From Mariprofundus ferrooxydans PV-1 (lineage in GTDB: Bacteria > Pseudomonadota > Zetaproteobacteria > Mariprofundales > Mariprofundaceae): 64,000 bases of DNA. The stretch is from positions 868,836 through 932,835 of the forward strand of contig NZ_DS022294.1 in NCBI RefSeq assembly GCF_000153765.1, in the 5' to 3' direction. The position numbers and the translations under genes are program-made. The notes below the pieces were generated by a model. It was not told the origin of the DNA. It saw nothing but the letters and a program-made list of their open reading frames with translations, and ran no database searches. The number at the start of each line of letters is the position of its first letter. The first letter of the stretch is position 1. Shown here piece after piece: positions 1,827 to 15,559 of this stretch.

Positions 1827-3170
1827 ATGAACAGACCCCTTACCAGTAGTGATTTTGCCGCATGGTTTGCCGTCGGATGCAAGCCGCGAAACGAGTGGCG
1901 CATCGGCACAGAGCACGAGAAAATCGGTTTCTGCATGGATACATTCCGCCCCATTCCCTATGACGGAGAACGCAGCATACGCGCTGTTCTCGAACGCTTG
2001 GCGGGTGGCGAATGGGAAATCGTCAATGAGAACGGACAGCCCATTGCCCTGAAAAACGGCATGGCGTCGGTCACACTCGAACCCGGCGGCCAACTGGAAT
2101 TGTCCGGCGCGCCGCTGGATTCCATTCACGCGACCTGCCTGGAAACGACAGGCCACTTAAAGGCACTCAAAACCATCTCGGCAGAGTTGCGTATCGGCTT
2201 CCTCGGCATGGGTTTTCAGCCCCGTTGGGGCAGGGATGATATTCCATGGATGCCGAAAGAGCGCTATGCAGTAATGCGTCGTTATATGCCCCGTGTTGGC
2301 AATGGCGGACTGGATATGATGTTACGCACGGCCACGGTACAGGCCAACCTGGATTTCTCCAGCGAAGCGGATATGGCCAGAAAGATGCGTATTTCGCTCT
2401 GCCTGCAACCGCTGGTTACCGCCCTGTTTGCCGCCAGTCCGTTCGAGGCCGGCAAACCAACCGACTACCTCTCCCGGCGCGGCGCCTGCTGGCTGGATAC
2501 CGACCCGGCTCGCACCGGCATTCCCGCCTGCGCCTTTGAAGATGGTTTCGGTTTTCAGGCTTATACCGAATGGGCGCTGGATGCGCCGATGTATTTTGTC
2601 GTGCGGGATGGCCACTATATTGATTGTGCCGGCAACAGCTTCCGTGATTTCATGCACGGGCGCCTGCCACAAATGGCCGGGCAGTATCCCACCATGGATG
2701 ACTGGGAGCTGCATATCTCCACCCTGTTCCCCGACGTCCGACTTAAACAATATCTGGAAATGCGCGGCGCTGATGCCGGCCCATGGCCATGGATATGTGC
2801 ATTACCCGCCCTGTGGAAGGGATTGCTCTATGATGCCGAAGCCGAGCAGGCCGCCTGGGATATGATCCGTGACTGGACTCATGCCGAAGTGACTGCACTG
2901 CGTCAGGCCGTTCCGGCCACAGCCATGCGCACGCCATTCCGGGACGGCGATCTCCTGCCACTGTGTGAGCAGATGGTTGATATTTCACGGGCCGGGCTGG
3001 AGAGGCTCAACATCTGCAATGATGCGGGCGAGAATGAGGCACGCTTTCTGACACCGTTAATGTATGCGGTTGTATCCGGCCAGACCCAGGCCGATCGCTG
3101 GCTGGCCGCATGGCACAATGAGTGGCATGGCGATATATCCCGCGTCTTCGCCGATGCCATGCATCCGTAG
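1827..3170 (+). CDS. gshA: Glutamate-cysteine ligase (plant/alphaproteobacterial type)
   Basis: First enzyme of glutathione synthesis: ATP-dependent coupling of glutamate to cysteine in the cytosol. The 447-residue protein is the usual length of the GCS2 / plant-type class. It has the N-terminal WRIGTEHEKIGF motif, where the glutamates bind metal and substrate, then SVTLEPGGQLELSG, GMGFQPRW, and the PSNL-like stretch near residue 170 (VQANLDFSSEADM). The distal FRDGDLLP segment is also typical. The start at 1827 leaves a complete N-terminus. The glutathione-related theme returns at 51207 with a GFA domain, but the genes are far apart. No strong Shine-Dalgarno is obvious. Confidence 0.93.
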   Translation: MNRPLTSSDFAAWFAVGCKPRNEWRIGTEHEKIGFCMDTFRPIPYDGERSIRAVLERLAGGEWEIVNENGQPIALKNGMASVTLEPGGQLELSGAPLDSIHATCLETTGHLKALKTISAELRIGFLGMGFQPRWGRDDIPWMPKERYAVMRRYMPRVGNGGLDMMLRTATVQANLDFSSEADMARKMRISLCLQPLVTALFAASPFEAGKPTDYLSRRGACWLDTDPARTGIPACAFEDGFGFQAYTEWALDAPMYFVVRDGHYIDCAGNSFRDFMHGRLPQMAGQYPTMDDWELHISTLFPDVRLKQYLEMRGADAGPWPWICALPALWKGLLYDAEAEQAAWDMIRDWTHAEVTALRQAVPATAMRTPFRDGDLLPLCEQMVDISRAGLERLNICNDAGENEARFLTPLMYAVVSGQTQADRWLAAWHNEWHGDISRVFADAMHP

Positions 3171-3202
3171 GGTATAATTTCCCCTTTATATTTTTACAGG
3201 TA

Positions 3203-3231
3203 TTGGGAATAGTTGCCAAATCTCGTGATAT
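3203..3231 (+). promoter_or_regulatory. Possible sigma70-type promoter before the Rossmann-PAS-GGDEF gene
   Basis: TTGGGA (3203-3208) and TGATAT (3226-3231) are separated by exactly 17 bases, in a short AT-rich gap 30 bases ahead of the ATG at 3263. Match to consensus is moderate; no experimental support. Confidence 0.35.
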
Positions 3232-3262
3232 AACGGTGAAATACGCGCATAAAGGATCGGCA

Positions 3263-4525
3263 ATGACACAGGCATCTTCTGCAGCACATCCGATTCTGAT
3301 TCTTGGCGGCGGTCACGGCGGCACTGCTTTTCTGGAACTCTTGCGGGATGAAACACTGGTTCAGGTCATCGGCGTTTCCGACCCGGATCCGGCCGCCCCT
3401 GCCTTAGCTACGGCAAAAGCACTGAACATCCCGGTCTATAACAACGCCGAAGCGGCCCTGCGCGCCTGCCAGCCATGCACTGCTTTTAATCTGACCGGAG
3501 ATGAGTCTGTTTCGGAGCTGGCTGCAAGCATCATTGGCCCATGCAGTATCGTTGGCGGCTCCGAAACCCACCTGATCTGGAAAATCATCAGTCAGTTAAG
3601 AGATGCACAGGATGAGCTGCAAAGCAATCGGCTGTTAACCGAATCTATCGTCACTCATGCCATGGAAGGCATCATCCTGATTAACACCCTCGGGGTCATC
3701 AAGGCATTCAACCCGGCAGCCGAACGCATATTCGGCTACAGACTCGAGGAAGTGATCGAAAAAAATATCAGCATGCTCATGCCCGAGCCGCATCGATCAG
3801 AGCATGACAACTACCTGCAACGGTACATGCAGACCAAAGAGGCCCATGTTATCGGCATTGAAAGAGAACTGATTGCCAGACACAAAAGTGGCGAACCGAT
3901 CCACATCTCACTCTCGGTCAATGAAATGACATCCGGAAACGAGCACTACTTTGTCGGCATTGTTGCCGATATCTCCGAGAGAAAACGCAATGAAGCGGCG
4001 ATCCTCAAGCTCGCCCATTTCGATGCCAACACAGGTCTGCCGAACAGAACGCTCTTTTTTGACCGATTTACACATGCGCTTGCACAGGCAAAACGTTACG
4101 ACCAGCAGGTTGCCATTCTGTTTCTGGATCTGGATGGCTTCAAGGCGGTCAATGACACGCTTGGCCACGTCGCCGGCGACACGCTATTGCAGGAGGTGGC
4201 TGCCAGGTTGGTCAAAGCCATCCGTGAAGTGGATACGGTCGCCCGTTTCGGCGGCGATGAATTCGCCTTTATTCTGTACGATGTGACCACGGATCAGCAT
4301 ATGACTCAGGTTGTTGCTGACCGGATTCTGGCAGGGCTCGCCACCCCCTTTATCATTGATGGCATACCATGCCATATCGGCGGAAGCATCGGCATCTCCC
4401 TGTTCCCGGAAAACGCAACGGATATGGATGCACTGATCCATCAGGCCGATACAGCCATGTATGCGGCGAAAAATAGCGGCAAAAACCGCTACCTCTTCTA
4501 TGAACCGGATATGGTGCCGGAGTAA
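3263..4525 (+). CDS. Diguanylate cyclase with N-terminal Rossmann-like and PAS domains
   Basis: Predicted to make cyclic di-GMP from two GTP. Residues 1-110 look like a Rossmann nucleotide-binding module (ILILGGGHGGTAFLELL, then VIGVSDPDP), 125-245 form a PAS domain (MEGIILINTLGVIKAFNPAA), and 250-415 a GGDEF domain with intact RFGGDEF and an upstream RxxD (REVD) inhibitory site five residues before it. No membrane segments or signal peptide are seen, so it should be cytosolic. The start at 3263 has AAGGA six bases upstream; a longer frame reaches 3122 but would overlap gshA. The Rossmann head may sense a nucleotide cofactor, which is inference. Transcribed after gshA with a possible own promoter. 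Confidence 0.88.
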   Translation: MTQASSAAHPILILGGGHGGTAFLELLRDETLVQVIGVSDPDPAAPALATAKALNIPVYNNAEAALRACQPCTAFNLTGDESVSELAASIIGPCSIVGGSETHLIWKIISQLRDAQDELQSNRLLTESIVTHAMEGIILINTLGVIKAFNPAAERIFGYRLEEVIEKNISMLMPEPHRSEHDNYLQRYMQTKEAHVIGIERELIARHKSGEPIHISLSVNEMTSGNEHYFVGIVADISERKRNEAAILKLAHFDANTGLPNRTLFFDRFTHALAQAKRYDQQVAILFLDLDGFKAVNDTLGHVAGDTLLQEVAARLVKAIREVDTVARFGGDEFAFILYDVTTDQHMTQVVADRILAGLATPFIIDGIPCHIGGSIGISLFPENATDMDALIHQADTAMYAAKNSGKNRYLFYEPDMVPE

Positions 4526-9331: not shown

Positions 9332-9742
9332 ATGGACTGGCCCCTCTTCTTTTCGGCACTGATCTCTTCGACGCTGTTTCCCGGCGGCTCGGAAGCGCTG
9401 CTGCTCTACCGCCTGAATGAGGGCGGCAATGCCGTAACGCTGGTGCTGATCGCCACCGTCGGCAATGTGCTGGGCAGCCTGATTACCTACGCCATGGGAC
9501 GGCTCGGCAACGCGGCGATGCACAAAAAATGGCTGCGTATCTCGGAGGCGCAGAGCGAGCGGGCCGAGCGCTGGTTTGCAGCCTACGGCAAGCCTGCACT
9601 ACTGTTTGCCTGGCTACCGGTTGTCGGCGATCCGTTATGTCTGGTGGCAGGCCTTTTGCGCTGCGGCATCGTGCCATTCCTGATTCTGGTCACCATCGGC
9701 AAACTGGCCCGCTACGCCGTGCTGGCCCTGCCCTTCATTTGA
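9332..9742 (+). CDS. yqaA: YqaA family inner-membrane protein
   Basis: A 136-residue small membrane protein of the YqaA / SNARE-associated (DedA-related) family. The N-terminus MDWPLFFSALISSTLFPGGSEALLL and the central GNVLGSLITYAMGR are family hallmarks, with GKPALLFAWLPVVGDPLC and a final helix. About four hydrophobic segments are visible. The biochemical role is not established; DedA relatives act in lipid carrier transport, which should not be assumed here. It diverges from ogt with only 27 bases between the starts, so promoters must overlap the coding ends. Confidence 0.88.
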   Translation: MDWPLFFSALISSTLFPGGSEALLLYRLNEGGNAVTLVLIATVGNVLGSLITYAMGRLGNAAMHKKWLRISEAQSERAERWFAAYGKPALLFAWLPVVGDPLCLVAGLLRCGIVPFLILVTIGKLARYAVLALPFI

Positions 9743-9778: not shown

Positions 9779-10033
9779 ATGCAGGATGCCGGGGTTCGCG
9801 AGGCCTACGATTCACATGCCTATGAATTTGAAATCGCCCGCTCCCTGATTGAAGCAAGGACCGAAGCAGGATTCACACAGGCCGAAGTCGCCAAACGTAT
9901 GGGCACCACCCAGTCAGTTGTTGCCCGCATCGAAGGCGGCGCTCAGCAGCCCAGCATGAAAAGCGTGATTCGCTATGCCACAGCCATCGGCGCGCACCCC
10001 GTCCTGCAATTGATGCGGGAGAAGCCTCAATAA
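9779..10033 (+). CDS. XRE-family helix-turn-helix protein, HigA-antitoxin-like, orphan
   Basis: An 84-residue HTH protein with the XRE motif at about residues 28-60 (AGFTQAEVAKRMGTTQSVVARIEGG), preceded by YEFEIARSLIEARTEAG as in HigA-type antitoxins. In that family the protein normally begins about ten residues earlier with a helix ending in a Leu-Lys-Trp pattern. Here the upstream codons in the same frame still read LLAELKKQW but contain no ATG, so the original start seems lost, or a CTG codon is used. No HigB/RelE toxin gene adjoins it. It may regulate itself or be decaying. The annotated ATG is the first in frame. Confidence 0.65.
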   Translation: MQDAGVREAYDSHAYEFEIARSLIEARTEAGFTQAEVAKRMGTTQSVVARIEGGAQQPSMKSVIRYATAIGAHPVLQLMREKPQ

Positions 10034-10167: not shown

Positions 10168-10240
10168 GTATAGCGCCTCGCATCAGCGGCAAAGTGCGCG
10201 CGTAGCGAGCACTTTGTCCGACTGCATGCGTTTGTTAGCT
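10168..10240 (-). repeat. attC site of cassette 4, outer core degenerate
   Basis: Sense R'' AGCTAAC (10240-10234) opens the site; arms AAAGTGC/GCACTTT and CGCAT/ATGCG pair. The R' core reads GCTATAC (10174-10168) instead of GTTATAC: the invariant GTT is changed, which should impair recombination at this end of the array. Confidence 0.75.
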
Positions 10241-10243
10241 GCA

Positions 10244-10981
10244 TTAGTTGAATCCGTCTTTTGGGACACATGCTGTAACAAACAGCTTCCCAAAATCTGT
10301 TAACTGAATTTTTGTTTCTCTACGTGTGCCAATTTGATTTTGAGGGTTGTTGCCTGGTTCATATATGGGCGTTTGTTTCAGTACTGGCCAATTTACAAGT
10401 GACATTGATTCAAGGTGCGCATAATAAATACTTAGTGCTTCAGGATTAGCTAGATGCTCTTCAGGAACTGTGCTTGTTTCGATTTGACGATTTACAAACC
10501 TATTTTCCCTTTTATTAAGGTCCATCGTGTCAACAATTTCAAAGTCAGAACTATTGAGAGCCTGAAGCATAAATGCTTCATCTGGAGATAATTGCCCGAT
10601 AATATATCCAAATGCTGGGTGTACCTCTCCAATAGTTTCTTTATTAGATGCCTTAATTAACAATTCCTCAAACATAAGCCATAAAGGGTTGCTTACGTCT
10701 AGGTATTTCATTTTTTCTATGCAAACGGAGGAAAGTTCCGCAGGTATTTCAATAAGGTTTTCATCTGGAACAGATCGGTTTAGCTTTTCTAAAAAACTAG
10801 CAAAACGATCTTGAAACGATGCGGCGATTTGGATAGGTGCAAGGATCAAGCGAGCTGTTTTTGCTAGATCTTGACCCAGCTTCCCAAGTTCTATTGCTGC
10901 TGGACTTACACCGTCATCGTAAACCTTCTCAGCTACCTTTGAATTTATTACTTTTTCAATAACATCTATGTCGTTAGTCAT
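10244..10981 (-). CDS. Abi-alpha (DUF4393) family protein, cassette 4
   Basis: A 245-residue protein of the Abi-alpha / DUF4393 family. Recognisable family features are VAEKVYDDGVSPAAIELGK at the N-terminus, TARLILAPIQ with the following DRFASFLEKL, NPLWLMFEELLIKA in the middle, and HPAFGYIIGQLSPDEAFML. The family name comes from a weak link to abortive phage infection; a defence role is plausible but unproven. No membrane helix is obvious apart from one moderately hydrophobic stretch. The start at 10981 has GGAG seven bases upstream and lies 15 bases inside the cassette core; an extension to 11026 would cross attC3. The stop is three bases from attC4. Confidence 0.8.
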   Translation of the reverse strand: MTNDIDVIEKVINSKVAEKVYDDGVSPAAIELGKLGQDLAKTARLILAPIQIAASFQDRFASFLEKLNRSVPDENLIEIPAELSSVCIEKMKYLDVSNPLWLMFEELLIKASNKETIGEVHPAFGYIIGQLSPDEAFMLQALNSSDFEIVDTMDLNKRENRFVNRQIETSTVPEEHLANPEALSIYYAHLESMSLVNWPVLKQTPIYEPGNNPQNQIGTRRETKIQLTDFGKLFVTACVPKDGFN

Positions 10982-10995
10982 AATTTCTCCAAGGC

Positions 10996-11089
10996 AGCTA
11001 ACGTCGCAAATCACCGGCAGCCACAAGCTGCATAGCGAGGCACGAGCGACGCAGCTTTTGGCTGTCCGAGTGCATTTGCCTTGTTATAC
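10996..11089 (-). repeat. attC site of cassette 3
   Basis: Sense R'' GTATAAC (11089-11083), R' GTTAGCT (11002-10996). Long imperfect stem: GCAAAT pairs with ATTTGC, CAGCCA with TGGCTG, AAGCTGC with GCAGCTT. The longest of the four sites, 94 bp. Confidence 0.85.
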
Positions 11090-11094
11090 CTTGT

Positions 11095-11919
11095 TTAGTT
11101 TTTGTTGTAGCCAAATTTGCCTCTCGAAAGAAATACCTCTTTCCAGTAGCTTTCTCTTTCAATTATTACTTTGTCATCTGCTTTCATTGGACGATATTCA
11201 AGGAGTGATAATCTGAAATTGTCTTTCGCATAATCAAATCCTTCCGCTTTAATTAGTTTGGTAAGTTCGTCATTCCAACCATGCCCTGTACCAATATAGC
11301 AACCCCACCTCGACCAAATTCCAGAGTCACCGTAAGCAGATCCAATATACTTTTTACCATTTGATTTATCTGTTATTACGTAAACACCTTTTACATTCTT
11401 TAATGCTGCCTTCCAGTCTGCATTTTCATTTTTAAATATTGGTATCAATATATTGAAATCATGATTTATGTTTTCATATCCAGGAAACGCCTCTCCTGAA
11501 TAAGGCTGTTTCAGTATTTCTGAGACTTTCATTTTACCTAGATGATGTTCCAAGAAAAAAGCTCTTCCTCTAGATGGTTTTTCTAATTTTATTTTTAGTC
11601 TTCCAATATAATCAGAATATTCCTTTAGCTCCTTTATTTCATAGCTATGACTATCAGGAATATCGTTTCTCTTAACAACCTCATAGATACCGCCAAACAA
11701 CCACATATTATTTTCAGGGTAAAAGTCTATCAATGAGAATATATATTGGCGGGAAAATTCGTTTTTACTATTTCTCCAAGTATTCCAACCAAACCATTCC
11801 TTCTTGTCTCTCACATAAACGTCAAGGGGCTGATCACCACCATTCCAACGGGCAGCATGAAATTTGTATTTATTCGGTTCTTCAATTCTGATGATATTGG
11901 TGATTGGAATGTCGCTCAT
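11095..11919 (-). CDS. GIY-YIG nuclease family protein, cassette 3
   Basis: A 274-residue protein with a C-terminal GIY-YIG domain at about residues 175-270: KGVYVITDKSNGKKYIGSA carries the GVY and YIG elements, followed by the catalytic-type Arg in WSRW and a late Glu in the ESYWKE segment. The N-terminal 170 residues have no domain I recognise. GIY-YIG proteins cut DNA in repair, restriction or mobile introns; as a single cassette gene this could be a restriction or homing-type nuclease, which is inference. The start at 11919 has AAGGAAG upstream and is 17 bases from the 5' core. Base composition is AT-rich compared with chromosomal neighbours. Confidence 0.82.
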   Translation of the reverse strand: MSDIPITNIIRIEEPNKYKFHAARWNGGDQPLDVYVRDKKEWFGWNTWRNSKNEFSRQYIFSLIDFYPENNMWLFGGIYEVVKRNDIPDSHSYEIKELKEYSDYIGRLKIKLEKPSRGRAFFLEHHLGKMKVSEILKQPYSGEAFPGYENINHDFNILIPIFKNENADWKAALKNVKGVYVITDKSNGKKYIGSAYGDSGIWSRWGCYIGTGHGWNDELTKLIKAEGFDYAKDNFRLSLLEYRPMKADDKVIIERESYWKEVFLSRGKFGYNKN

Positions 11920-11935
11920 TCATGCTTCCTTTTGG

Positions 11936-12007
11936 GTATAACGTCCGAGCTGTGCTGCCGGAGAGAAGCGCAGCGTAACGAAGGTCAGAACAAGCGACTT
12001 GTTATAA
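11936..12007 (-). repeat. attC site of cassette 2
   Basis: Sense R'' TTATAAC (12007-12001), R' GTTATAC (11942-11936). The inner arms pair less well than in the other sites, but the cores match their partner cores exactly and the spacing (72 bp) is typical. Confidence 0.78.
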
Positions 12008-12011
12008 CTTG

Positions 12012-12539
12012 TCACTGTTCACCTTCATCTACTTTCCTTGCAACTTCAATTTGAGCACGTAATTCCTTAACCCTAAACTTTGTGGATTTGTATTCACGCC
12101 CAAGGGTATCTGATACAACGAAGCGAATTTCGTCTGAGTCCTTCAAATGACGACCAATTTGTGACTCAAAGTCGTTAAGATTGAGATCATTTTTAAATAC
12201 GCCGCCTGATTCTAGTTTGAATGGGTATTTGTTGGGATCGTTGACTTTAGCTGGATGAAATACTTGCTCACCATTAATTTTGCGAGAGATCCATATTTTA
12301 GGCTTTTCAATGAAGCGTTGAGTGGAACCTGTATTTTTAACTTTGACATAAATAATAGGTTTCGTGCCAGGTAAAAATTTATTTCCTTCACTAATTAATT
12401 CATGAGCAAAACCATGCTCAACAATTATCCTTGTTTTTGTATCGGCCAGTCGATTACGAAAAGCAAAAAGCAGCCCTAGAAAACCTATGCTAGCGCTAAA
12501 GATTATGATGTGGATTTTTTCGATTATTGGGAATTCCAT
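12012..12539 (-). CDS. Membrane-anchored protein of unknown function, cassette 2
   Basis: A 175-residue protein I do not recognise. One hydrophobic helix near residues 8-27 (IHIIIFSASIGFLGLLFAF) is followed by a basic stretch (RNRLADTKTR), suggesting an N-terminal inner-membrane anchor. The rest has an alternating pattern (PIIYVKVKNTGSTQRFIEKP) that resembles an immunoglobulin-like beta-sandwich, then a C-terminal charged helix. No catalytic motif is visible. No Shine-Dalgarno precedes the ATG at 12539, which lies 17 bases inside the core; expression may depend on read-through from cassette 1. Confidence 0.7.
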   Translation of the reverse strand: MEFPIIEKIHIIIFSASIGFLGLLFAFRNRLADTKTRIIVEHGFAHELISEGNKFLPGTKPIIYVKVKNTGSTQRFIEKPKIWISRKINGEQVFHPAKVNDPNKYPFKLESGGVFKNDLNLNDFESQIGRHLKDSDEIRFVVSDTLGREYKSTKFRVKELRAQIEVARKVDEGEQ

Positions 12540-12556
12540 AAGAGTTCAATTATGAG

Positions 12557-12604
12557 TTATAACGCCGCATTCAGCGGCTTGTCCGCTGTAATGCTTTGTT
12601 ATGT
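12557..12604 (-). repeat. attC site of cassette 1
   Basis: Shortest site, 48 bp. Sense R'' ACATAAC (12604-12598), R' GTTATAA (12563-12557). Arms GCATT/AATGC and CAGCGG/CCGCTG pair perfectly around a small loop, a textbook short attC. Confidence 0.88.
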
Positions 12605-12623
12605 GATACTTTGTAGTGGCGCA

Positions 12624-13367
12624 TTATTTCCCGTCCCTTTCGTTGATATGTTTTTTTGTTTCCTCTGGAACCACGTCGGAATAAAGCAGATCAAGTTCCT
12701 TTGGCTTTGAAATCATCTCATCGGCTATAAAATTAAGAACATGGAATAGCCTCAAGGCGATTTCTCGACCATCTTCGAGGTCGATCTGACCCGGATGCAC
12801 TGCGTTATTACCGACCACGCGAAGCAAATCCAACGCCTGTTGAATCTTTGGACTCAGTCCCTCTGCAACAAGAGCCTTAATATCATTATTGATGTTCTTT
12901 CCAGATTTGCCGAGCTGCTTAAGTAGTAACTGCAAGGCTAACCTCAATAACGCTGTAGCACCTTTAGGTGAATCAACTACGATGGTTGAGGCCTCAACGT
13001 ACAAATTCTGGATCTCTTGATCCATGTCCGCGTTAGGCGGAGCAACAGGCGTTTTCTTTGGGTATACGATTTCTTTTTCTACCCAGATTGATATATCTCC
13101 GCATGCTGAACAAGTGGCTACAGAAAAATCATCCGGGACAAACTCTGACATATGCCGATTGTTCGCTGATTCTACTTCCCCGATAAAACCCTCAATAGCC
13201 TTTTGTTGGTAACCTTGGATATGTTTTCTGTAGTCATAAAAGACATGCTTTAAAATATTATTTGCTGCTCCACTAGCATTGTCGACATCAAACCACCGTT
13301 GCTGCGATGCAACCAGACAATGTGGGCATTGAAATTTGTCACTTTTGAATTTTGGGGAAAGGTCCAA
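12624..13367 (-). CDS. DUF4145 domain protein with zinc-ribbon head, cassette 1
   Basis: A 247-residue protein. The C-terminal two thirds match the DUF4145 pattern (GATALLRLALQLLLKQLG, then LRVVGNNAVHPGQIDLEDG), a helical domain also found fused to nucleases and restriction proteins and thought to be a defence-associated module. The N-terminus has two CxxC pairs (CPHC near residue 14 and CSAC near 85) that could form a zinc ribbon. No catalytic motif is visible. The start is a TTG at 13367 with AGGAG eight bases upstream; no in-frame ATG fits. As the first cassette it lies closest to the putative promoter at 13484-13456. Confidence 0.8.
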   Translation of the reverse strand: MDLSPKFKSDKFQCPHCLVASQQRWFDVDNASGAANNILKHVFYDYRKHIQGYQQKAIEGFIGEVESANNRHMSEFVPDDFSVATCSACGDISIWVEKEIVYPKKTPVAPPNADMDQEIQNLYVEASTIVVDSPKGATALLRLALQLLLKQLGKSGKNINNDIKALVAEGLSPKIQQALDLLRVVGNNAVHPGQIDLEDGREIALRLFHVLNFIADEMISKPKELDLLYSDVVPEETKKHINERDGK

Positions 13368-13391
13368 AATCTAGCTCCTATTCATTTGTGC

Positions 13392-13398
13392 ACATAAC
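13392..13398 (-). other. 5' boundary core of the cassette array
   Basis: Sense GTTATGT, exactly complementary to the R'' core of attC1 and therefore the insertion point of cassette 1. The DNA upstream shows no fold or second core that would make it a further attC; it could be the edge of an attI. Confidence 0.7.
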
Positions 13399-13632: not shown

Positions 13633-13760
13633 TCAGGAAACGGCCTGTAGCCAGAGCGGCAGGGTCAGCAGTGAGAGCAGCGTGGTCAGCGTGACGGCCT
13701 CGGCATAGAGCGCGACATCGAGCTTGAAGCGATCGTAGGTCACAAGCCCCAGACCATCGT
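13633..13760 (-). pseudogene. Duplicated 3' end of the AEC transporter gene
   Basis: 128 bases match 14561-14689 with three substitutions and one single-base deletion, beginning exactly at the transporter's stop codon. The deletion breaks the frame near the inner end, and no upstream coding sequence is attached, so this is a remnant. The two copies stand in direct orientation 928 bp apart and enclose the ABM-domain gene. Confidence 0.9.
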
Positions 13761-13938: not shown

Positions 13939-14517
13939 TTAGTTGAACAACCATTGCCGGATGAGCTTTGTAAAGTGAGGCATAACGACATACACCATTA
14001 AAAACACCACGATTCCTGTCACTGCGAGTGTAGTAATAAAGTTGTTGTCTGGTACGCCCATATGCCGTAATACAGGCACAATAAGCAAAGGTACTCCTAA
14101 CACCAGAGGGTAGATGGCAGACCATGTAACCAGACACTGCTTCCAGCGCACCGGCACCTTTGCCTGCGCCCCCGCAGGAGTGAACCAGAAATCCAAACCA
14201 CTACTGACGAAGAAGTCATCGCCCGTCACGAACAGTGGGCGCACCTTTTCGATTAGGCGGGCCCGAGTCGGAGAATCCATCCACCCCTTTAGATGTGCCT
14301 CGGTATCGAATCGAATAACGACCGTATAGGTTTCCGTCAGCCCGGGAATCGGGCGGATGATGTGCCAGTCCAAGTGACCCGGGAACGCTTTGCAAAGAGG
14401 CGCAATTTCTTCGAGCCACTTTTCGTATTCGGCATGTTTATCGTTACGCAGTCTATGCGTAATGACAACTGTTGCCCCTTCGAAGGACTCCGCATCAGAG
14501 GGTGAAGCTACAGTCAT
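13939..14517 (-). CDS. Antibiotic biosynthesis monooxygenase (ABM) domain membrane protein
   Basis: A 192-residue protein with an N-terminal ABM ferredoxin-like domain (residues about 17-100: VVITHRLRNDKHAEYEKWL, FPGHLDWHIIRP, YTVVIRFDTEAHLKGWMDS) followed by two transmembrane helices near 130-150 and 160-182. ABM domains act as small monooxygenases or haem-degrading enzymes, but this membrane-linked group has no defined substrate. GGAGG precedes the ATG. The gene lies between the two direct repeats of the AEC 3' end, which suggests it came in with a duplication or insertion event. A GCGCC/GGCGC hairpin at 13916-13930 follows the stop. Confidence 0.82.
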   Translation of the reverse strand: MTVASPSDAESFEGATVVITHRLRNDKHAEYEKWLEEIAPLCKAFPGHLDWHIIRPIPGLTETYTVVIRFDTEAHLKGWMDSPTRARLIEKVRPLFVTGDDFFVSSGLDFWFTPAGAQAKVPVRWKQCLVTWSAIYPLVLGVPLLIVPVLRHMGVPDNNFITTLAVTGIVVFLMVYVVMPHFTKLIRQWLFN

Positions 14518-14560: not shown

Positions 14561-14689
14561 TCAGGAAACGGCCTGTAGCCAGAGCGGCAGGGTCAGCAGT
14601 GAGAGCAGCGTGGTCAGCGTGACGGCCTCGGCATAGAGCGAGACATCGAGCTTGAAGCGATCGCAGATCACAAGCCCCAGCACCATCGT
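14561..14689 (-). repeat. Direct repeat, parent copy of the AEC 3' end
   Basis: Parent copy of the remnant at 13633-13760; it includes the stop codon and about 42 codons of the intact transporter gene. Confidence 0.9.
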
Positions 14690-15496
14690 CGGCATTGCGC
14701 CTTCGATGACCACCGGCGCCAGAAATTTATCCGGCATGCCGACGCCGATGGCGGAGCCCCATGCAATCAGCGGCATCAGCAGCAGCTGAATCACCATCAC
14801 CGGCAGCAGCACCGGAATACGCGGCAGCCAGCCGGCCTGCCAGCGCAGCGCCATGCCCACCGAAAGCAGCATCAGCGGCACAACCGCCGCGCCCAGTGTG
14901 CTGAGCGATTCGCCCAACCATGCGGGCATCGGTACGGCAAACACGCTGAGTATCAATCCTGCCGCGGCCGCCCAGATCGCGGGCACCCGCAGCAGACTGA
15001 CCAGCGGGTGCATCCCCTCACCAGCCGTACCGTAATAGCGGGCCAGGATAATGCCGACGGTAAACAGCAGCGGCGTGCTGGCCAGCAGATCGAAATGGAT
15101 GGCAACCACCTGCGCCCAGCTGCCGAAGGTCTGGCTCAGGACAGGCAGGCCGAGGTAGGAGAAGTTGCCAAAGGCGCAGGCGAGCAGCAGGGCGCCGACA
15201 GCCTTGTCGGGCGTGCCGGGCATAAAGGCGCGCACCAGCTTGCCGTTGCCATAAAGTAGAAAGGCGGCCAGCAGCGATAACAGTACGGAGAGCGCGGCAA
15301 CGATCGGTACACGCAGCGTATTTAGGCCGACGGGGAACTGCCAGAGCACATGCAGTACGAGCGCGGGTAAAAAGATATGGTAGACAGCCTGAGCCAGATG
15401 GCTGCGCATGGTTTCAGCGGATTTTCCGCCGAGCACCAGACGCCAGACGATACCGGTCAGGATAATGGCGGCCATACCGAACAGGACATTGATCAT
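14561..15496 (-). CDS. AEC family (auxin efflux carrier-like) transporter
   Basis: A 311-residue inner-membrane protein with about ten hydrophobic segments in two five-helix bundles, as in the AEC / bile-acid-arsenite fold carriers. Typical points are the N-terminal ILTGIVWRLVL, the central CAFGNFSYLGLPV with its Asn-Gly-Pro bend, PLMLLSVGMAL, and the late PTMVLGLVICDRF. Substrates in bacteria include malate, malonate and other carboxylates; none can be assigned here. The ATG at 15496 was preferred to a TTG two codons earlier. The last 129 bases of the gene are duplicated at 13633-13760. Confidence 0.88.
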   Translation of the reverse strand: MINVLFGMAAIILTGIVWRLVLGGKSAETMRSHLAQAVYHIFLPALVLHVLWQFPVGLNTLRVPIVAALSVLLSLLAAFLLYGNGKLVRAFMPGTPDKAVGALLLACAFGNFSYLGLPVLSQTFGSWAQVVAIHFDLLASTPLLFTVGIILARYYGTAGEGMHPLVSLLRVPAIWAAAAGLILSVFAVPMPAWLGESLSTLGAAVVPLMLLSVGMALRWQAGWLPRIPVLLPVMVIQLLLMPLIAWGSAIGVGMPDKFLAPVVIEGAMPTMVLGLVICDRFKLDVSLYAEAVTLTTLLSLLTLPLWLQAVS

Positions 15497-15559
15497 GGGC
15501 AAAGCCTACATGGTCGGCGACCGACTCACTATGCTATTTACCCCTGATGAAAGTACATA

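Follow-up and report, generated by a model that had tools for sequence, protein, structure and literature searches.

An integron cassette array with a conserved attI leader and no integrase gene in Mariprofundus ferrooxydans PV-1

Layout of the array and its attC sites

The stretch of DNA analysed here, called the window, comprises 64,000 nucleotides of Mariprofundus ferrooxydans PV-1 (G000:C4:868836-932835; the genome, G000, is 2.99 Mb in 4 contigs and 99.75% complete). At positions 10168-13398 it carries four single-gene units, all on the minus strand and with a palindromic site behind each gene, an arrangement that an earlier reading of the sequence alone had described as an integron cassette array and that the sequence bears out. 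The array is preceded by a predicted attI leader, and the genome holds no gene for an integron integrase (IntI, gene intI). All four core pairs quoted in the sequence-only reading are exact, with 7 of 7 positions matching in each pair and each R′ core complementary to its own R″ core. The features, in the order in which they would be read from the leader, are as follows.

13392 to about 13590, minus strand: predicted attI leader (about 180-200 bp), recombination site and promoter region upstream of cassette 1
13398-13392, minus strand: crossover core of attI, GTTATGT
13398-13392 and 12604-12598, minus strand: cores of cassette 1, GTTATGT and ACATAAC
12624-13367, minus strand: cassette 1 gene, PD-T7-4-like, N-terminal Zn-ribbon and DUF4145 (HEPN-like), 247 aa
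12557-12604, minus strand: attC of cassette 1, 29.9 bits in the covariance model, hairpin fold
12563-12557 and 12007-12001, minus strand: cores of cassette 2, GTTATAA and TTATAAC
12012-12539, minus strand: cassette 2 gene, orphan, 175 aa
11936-12007, minus strand: attC of cassette 2, 29.0 bits (E 1.4e-4), poor fold
11942-11936 and 11089-11083, minus strand: cores of cassette 3, GTTATAC and GTATAAC
11095-11919, minus strand: cassette 3 gene, UzuA-like protein with a GIY-YIG nuclease fold, 274 aa
10996-11089, minus strand: attC of cassette 3, 45.6 bits (E 1.4e-8)
11002-10996 and 10240-10234, minus strand: cores of cassette 4, GTTAGCT and AGCTAAC
10244-10981, minus strand: cassette 4 gene, Abi-alpha family protein, 245 aa
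10168-10240, minus strand: attC of cassette 4, the last of the array, 30.7 bits, R′ core degenerate

The attC sites were searched for with a covariance model trained on 20 sites, all outside the window, drawn partly from plasmids with class 1 integrons and partly from arrays of relatives, most of these arrays adjoining intI. Exactly four matches were obtained at E≤10 in the 64 kb, on the minus strand and at the four places claimed, each lying just 3′ of a gene end and in the orientation of the gene. The 45.6-bit match is partly circular, since the attC of a homologous cassette from G056 is among the training sites; the three matches at 29.0-30.7 bits have no such dependence. Sites 1, 3 and 4 form attC hairpins, and their bulged bases lie, on the gene-sense strand, in the 5′ arm, which is the normal attC orientation. 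In the last attC, the R′ core reads GCTATAC where GTT... is expected; its G is the last base of the cassette, and the flank therefore starts at the crossover point. An Rfam scan of the window did not find the attC family and returned only one tRNA; a hand-written structural scanner missed most of the window sites with strict core patterns, recovered 2 of the 4 in a relaxed version and was superseded by the covariance model.

It was found that the protein of cassette 3 is 93% identical to that of the first cassette beside an intact intI in Mariprofundus sp. OFTM252 (G056, contig JAJFLH010000040.1). Between the window and G056, DNA homology extends from GTTATACCC to ...GCGACGTT, with unrelated sequence to either side; it begins at GTTATAC and stops at ...GACGTT, which are the predicted crossover points. 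Because the alignment is homologous between the cores only, the same unit occurs in two contexts with its ends at the crossover positions, and this comparison, which covers one of the four cassettes, is strong evidence that the UzuA-like unit is a cassette.

The attI leader and the integrase

Cassette 1 is preceded not by an attC site but by the leader. A profile built solely from three leaders of other genomes, two beside intI (G044 and G062) and one beside an intI stub (G047), has a single match in the window, at 13563-13395 on the minus strand (E 2.2e-12). In G044, the intI start codon is on one side of the leader and the first cassette core on the other; in G062, intI starts at its outer end and the leader terminates in ...TACTTATACTCATTAATAT, followed by GTTA, which is one base off the window leader's terminus, ...TACTTATACTCATTAATAA, likewise followed by GTTA; in G047, a 67-codon stub of intI precedes it. 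Since leaders adjoining intI or its stub match the window here and nowhere else, the stretch from 13392 to about 13590 is, as a predicted site, the attI leader of an integron type. A candidate cassette promoter (Pc), TTGACG-17-TATGCT, lies at 13484-13456, and the form TTGnnA-17-TAnGnT is found in most leaders, the match in the scan being not above chance. The leader was detected in 15 of the 78 genomes of the class, with intI of that type beside two copies only, plus the stub. Other attI types (G056, G021, G022, G052 and G071) were compared with the upstream flank of the array, and their pairwise alignments were not significant; the true relatives of the window leader are of the G044/G062 type and were reached through the other arrays of PV-1 itself. 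The G047 locus (L205; C11, leader 371671-371872), with an intI consisting of its first ~67 codons, an intact leader and two cassettes, is an integron caught in decay.

The sequence-only reading had proposed a genome-wide search for intI and further attC sites. This search returned no intI, three further loci with the same leader ahead of the first cassette, and a fifth locus with an attI of another type.

G000:C3:989000-999500 (L142; leader at C3:992041): leader and cassettes, no intI
G000:C3:220500-226500 (L143; leader at C3:225054): leader and cassettes including a methyltransferase, no intI
G000:C3:1315300-1321300 (L146; leader at C3:1316584): leader and cassettes, a TIR-Mrr fusion gene, no intI
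G000:C3:349500-355500, at about 1937-4068 (L145): attI of other type, no intI

The L146 leader was recovered at 186 bits by a profile built without it. The leaders of L142 and L146 are 91% identical over 216 bp and show ~6% identity after the core, and the L143 leader is ~90% identical to a leader of G051 with different upstream genes. The genes ahead of the leaders are CorA and an AIG2-like gene (L142, L146), a peptidase (L143) and the AEC gene of the window. Because the L142 and L146 leaders are so similar between unrelated flanks, the attI leader itself must have been duplicated or moved, and has been copied around the chromosome. A motif shared by the left ends of L142 and L146, TTTCGGCC...CATTC, was considered as a general repeat, and it has one chance-level match in the window. 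At L145, the attI follows a dihydroxy-acid-dehydratase-like (ilvD-like) gene, resembles that of G008 and G070, and is followed by one orphan cassette with an attC; the Shedu SduA gene of this locus (572 bits) has no attC match behind it. It has been reported that Xanthomonas integrons likewise lie downstream of ilvD (PMC12444791).

As for the integrase, the best match to TIGR02249 in the genome scores 74 bits against a cut-off of 265, and the matches are XerC and XerD. Four attC sites within 2.4 kb in a genome with no IntI agree with the IntegronFinder definition of a CALIN, a cluster of attC sites lacking an integron integrase (PMC9024848). The assignment to this class by the sequence-only reading holds in that the cassettes are real, by the attC model and the OFTM252 cassette, and IntI is absent; it falls short in that the array is not an anonymous attC cluster, since attI has been kept. 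Cassettes had also been said to be little discussed in this lineage, and in the open-licence literature no paper on integrons of Mariprofundus or Zetaproteobacteria was found; the genomes are another matter, as integrons are common in the class, with intI in 28 of 78 genomes and attC in 59 of 78.

Several observations concern other integrons of the class. One IntI type has an N-terminal extension of ~100 residues without a Pfam match (L048, 467-1721, minus strand; L033, 768-1955, plus strand), and other long IntI frames measure 434-500 aa. In G062 (L033, 1-60 and 700-760), the intI start occurs twice, in opposite orientation, around one cassette, the result of an inverted duplication or else an artefact of the assembly. 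G010 holds a large zetaproteobacterial integron, with at least 45 attC matches over many short contigs.

Cassette genes and their predicted functions

The sequence-only reading had taken the products of cassettes 1, 3 and 4 as defence-like, and homology supports this for three of the four genes, with family matches over most of their length. The cassette 1 protein matches Pfam DUF4145 (55 bits) and PADLOC PD-T7-4 (247 bits, residues 72-246 of 247). DUF4145 is a member of the HEPN superfamily, in which many proteins are defence RNases (PMC3710099), and PD-T7-4 was obtained in E. coli by functionally selecting for genes that act against phage (PMC9519451). The cassette 3 protein matches PADLOC UzuA (171 bits, residues 12-274), and its GIY-YIG catalytic residues Y180, Y191, R204 and E256 are invariant across 16 homologs. 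The cassette 4 protein matches Pfam Abi_alpha at 111.7 bits against a gathering score of 29, and PADLOC PDC-S47 at 102 bits (residues 13-239). Judged by these families, which are known or candidate anti-phage proteins, phage or foreign DNA is the probable target of the three products: the RNase-like protein of HEPN type from cassette 1, the GIY-YIG nuclease from cassette 3 and the Abi-alpha protein from cassette 4. Their expected response to phage attack would be nucleic acid degradation or abortive infection. Near full-length PADLOC matches were found for 3 of the 4 cassettes here versus 2 of 30 cassette proteins of relatives, in a post hoc comparison. The cassette 2 protein belongs to no family in Pfam or PADLOC and has no relative in the 78 class genomes or in plasmids; a low-confidence structural model (predicted local distance difference test, pLDDT, 59) suggests that it likely has an N-terminal membrane helix followed by a beta-rich domain. 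Plasmid searches found only distant relatives of cassette proteins. A second DUF4145/PD-T7-4-like gene of PV-1, at C4:1318503-1318991 (L181), is 53% identical to that of cassette 1.

UzuA relatives with an attC match directly after the gene were found in Neptuniibacter, Chromohalobacter, Methylococcaceae, a Fimbriimonadaceae bacterium and Desulfobulbus, some of the matches being weak; the Fimbriimonadaceae bacterium has its own intI. Loci in which a UzuA-like gene is followed by attC occur in several phyla (L219, L233, L235, L239, L241 and L243), one of them with intI. UzuA is a cassette gene common to several phyla, and this cassette status across phyla is new.

Origin of the array and comparison with known systems

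Very probably, the array is the residue of a chromosomal integron that captured four cassettes at attI and later lost its intI gene. An integron integrase of the type found in G044 and G062 would have captured the cassettes singly at attI; the later loss of intI would have left the array frozen unless an integrase arrives in trans; and the leader promoter would drive the genes leftwards, with the PD-T7-4-like gene first. Some points weigh against this explanation. No intI remnant lies beside any of the four leaders of PV-1, so the relatives are the basis for inferring that intI was lost here; of the four attC sites, site 2 is the weakest and folds poorly; the promoter match of the window by itself is not above chance in the scan; and cassette 2 lacks a known relative in Pfam, PADLOC, the 78 class genomes and plasmids. 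PADLOC models also match ordinary genes, namely 5 of 10 controls at E<1e-5, one of them at 189 bits; the defence reading is therefore based on how much of each protein is covered and by which family, not on a PADLOC match alone.

The most serious alternative, although an unlikely one, is that the leader and its cassettes were a mobile unit without intI from the start, moved by a transposase or recombinase acting in trans. It would account for the presence in a single genome of four leader loci that each sit at a different gene end and all lack intI, for L142 and L146 leaders of 91% identity ahead of unrelated post-core sequence, and for the ~90% identical leaders of L143 and G051 beside different upstream genes; however, neither a transposase nor a target duplication or terminal repeat was identified, and intI or its stub does adjoin the leader in three relatives. 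A related proposal, which we put forward only tentatively, is that the leader is a dispersing element, found mainly in this genus and copied to many gene ends without an integrase, each copy gathering its own cassettes, often for defence, through an integrase in trans. If this were true, the genome would have not a single integron but several docking sites in parallel.

Far less probable is that no attI ever held the cassettes at this locus and that an IntI in trans placed single cassettes or a broken-off array at a secondary site (attG), as has been proposed for many CALINs. The locus does lack intI and any remnant of it, and the insertion is unique to PV-1; but the 5′ flank is not unrelated chromosomal DNA but the conserved leader that adjoins intI in G062 and G044 and the stub in G047, and in light of this leader homology the proposal is strongly disfavoured. 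The view that the block is an ordinary operon or defence island with chance palindromes, to which the single strand and the short spacers would be suited, is refuted by the boundary alignment, with cassette ends reproduced in a congener, as well as by four exact core pairs, four model matches with none elsewhere in 64 kb, and block genes that are not adjacent in any of the 78 genomes.

The surroundings of the locus give the same answer on the operon. The array is flanked by the convergent genes of a VTT-domain protein (9332-9742) and an AEC transporter (14561-15502), which are neighbours across the genus. The gap between them is 15 bp in G055 and G065 and holds other insertions in further congeners, and 0 of 20 congeneric loci carry the array or an attC match between the flanking genes. 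Neither of the two outcomes that the sequence-only reading had named as speaking against it, a lack of covariance-model matches at the four sites or conservation of the whole block as an operon in many relatives, was found. Among the 78 class genomes, relatives of the DUF4145, Abi-alpha and orphan proteins are at most scattered or distant, and no block gene adjoins another block gene there. It can be stated that the block is not an operon.

Other features of this region were also observed. The VTT/AEC gap is a variable insertion spot of the genus, holding 12-16 kb in G048, G046 and G047 (L131, L132 and L133); in G046 and G048, where the open reading frames were read, the insertion contains a histidine kinase/response regulator cluster. 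In the window, a 120-bp direct repeat (98%) of the 3′ end of the AEC transporter gene, at 13633-13752 and 14561-14680, flanks a gene with an antibiotic-biosynthesis-monooxygenase domain (13939-14517), which is a recent insertion, and the attI leader abuts the outer copy. Between the VTT gene and the array lies an antitoxin-like gene with an XRE-type helix-turn-helix (9779-10033) and no adjoining toxin gene.

The array shows that cassette capture and phage-defence-like cassette genes occur in Zetaproteobacteria, which are deep-branching marine iron oxidisers. The leader represents a new attI family, one that current integron finders do not model, and attI is poorly described outside class 1 integrons (PMC9024848). 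That one genome holds several attI copies without intI poses a testable question, namely how such platforms spread and collect cassettes without an adjacent integrase.

Like a CALIN, the window array has at least two attC sites close together with no intI nearby, and as with CALINs such arrays are chromosomally dispersed at non-random places, dispersed CALINs being known in Xanthomonas (PMC12444791); in the CALIN studies found, however, attI is not described, whereas the window array keeps an attI leader that recurs at several loci. The complete integron of OFTM252 shares the UzuA cassette and a homologous attC with the window, but it has intI, another attI type, a different position in the chromosome and different cassettes after the first. 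PD-T7-4, Uzume (UzuA) and Abi-alpha/PDC-S47 are similar in that their family models match most of each protein, and differ in that the window copies, with a predicted activity, occur as integron cassettes. As summarised in PMC12409362, sedentary chromosomal integrons of Vibrio carry anti-phage cassettes (Darracq et al. 2025; Getz et al. 2025) and mobile integrons with defence cassettes also occur (Kieffer et al. 2025). Going by that summary, what they have in common with the window is an integron array with small defence cassettes of one gene each, and the window differs in its zetaproteobacterial host, its four cassettes, the lack of an integrase, and several small arrays in place of one long array. 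Integrons encoding defence are already known, and what is new is the presence of dispersed intI-less attI platforms in Zetaproteobacteria.

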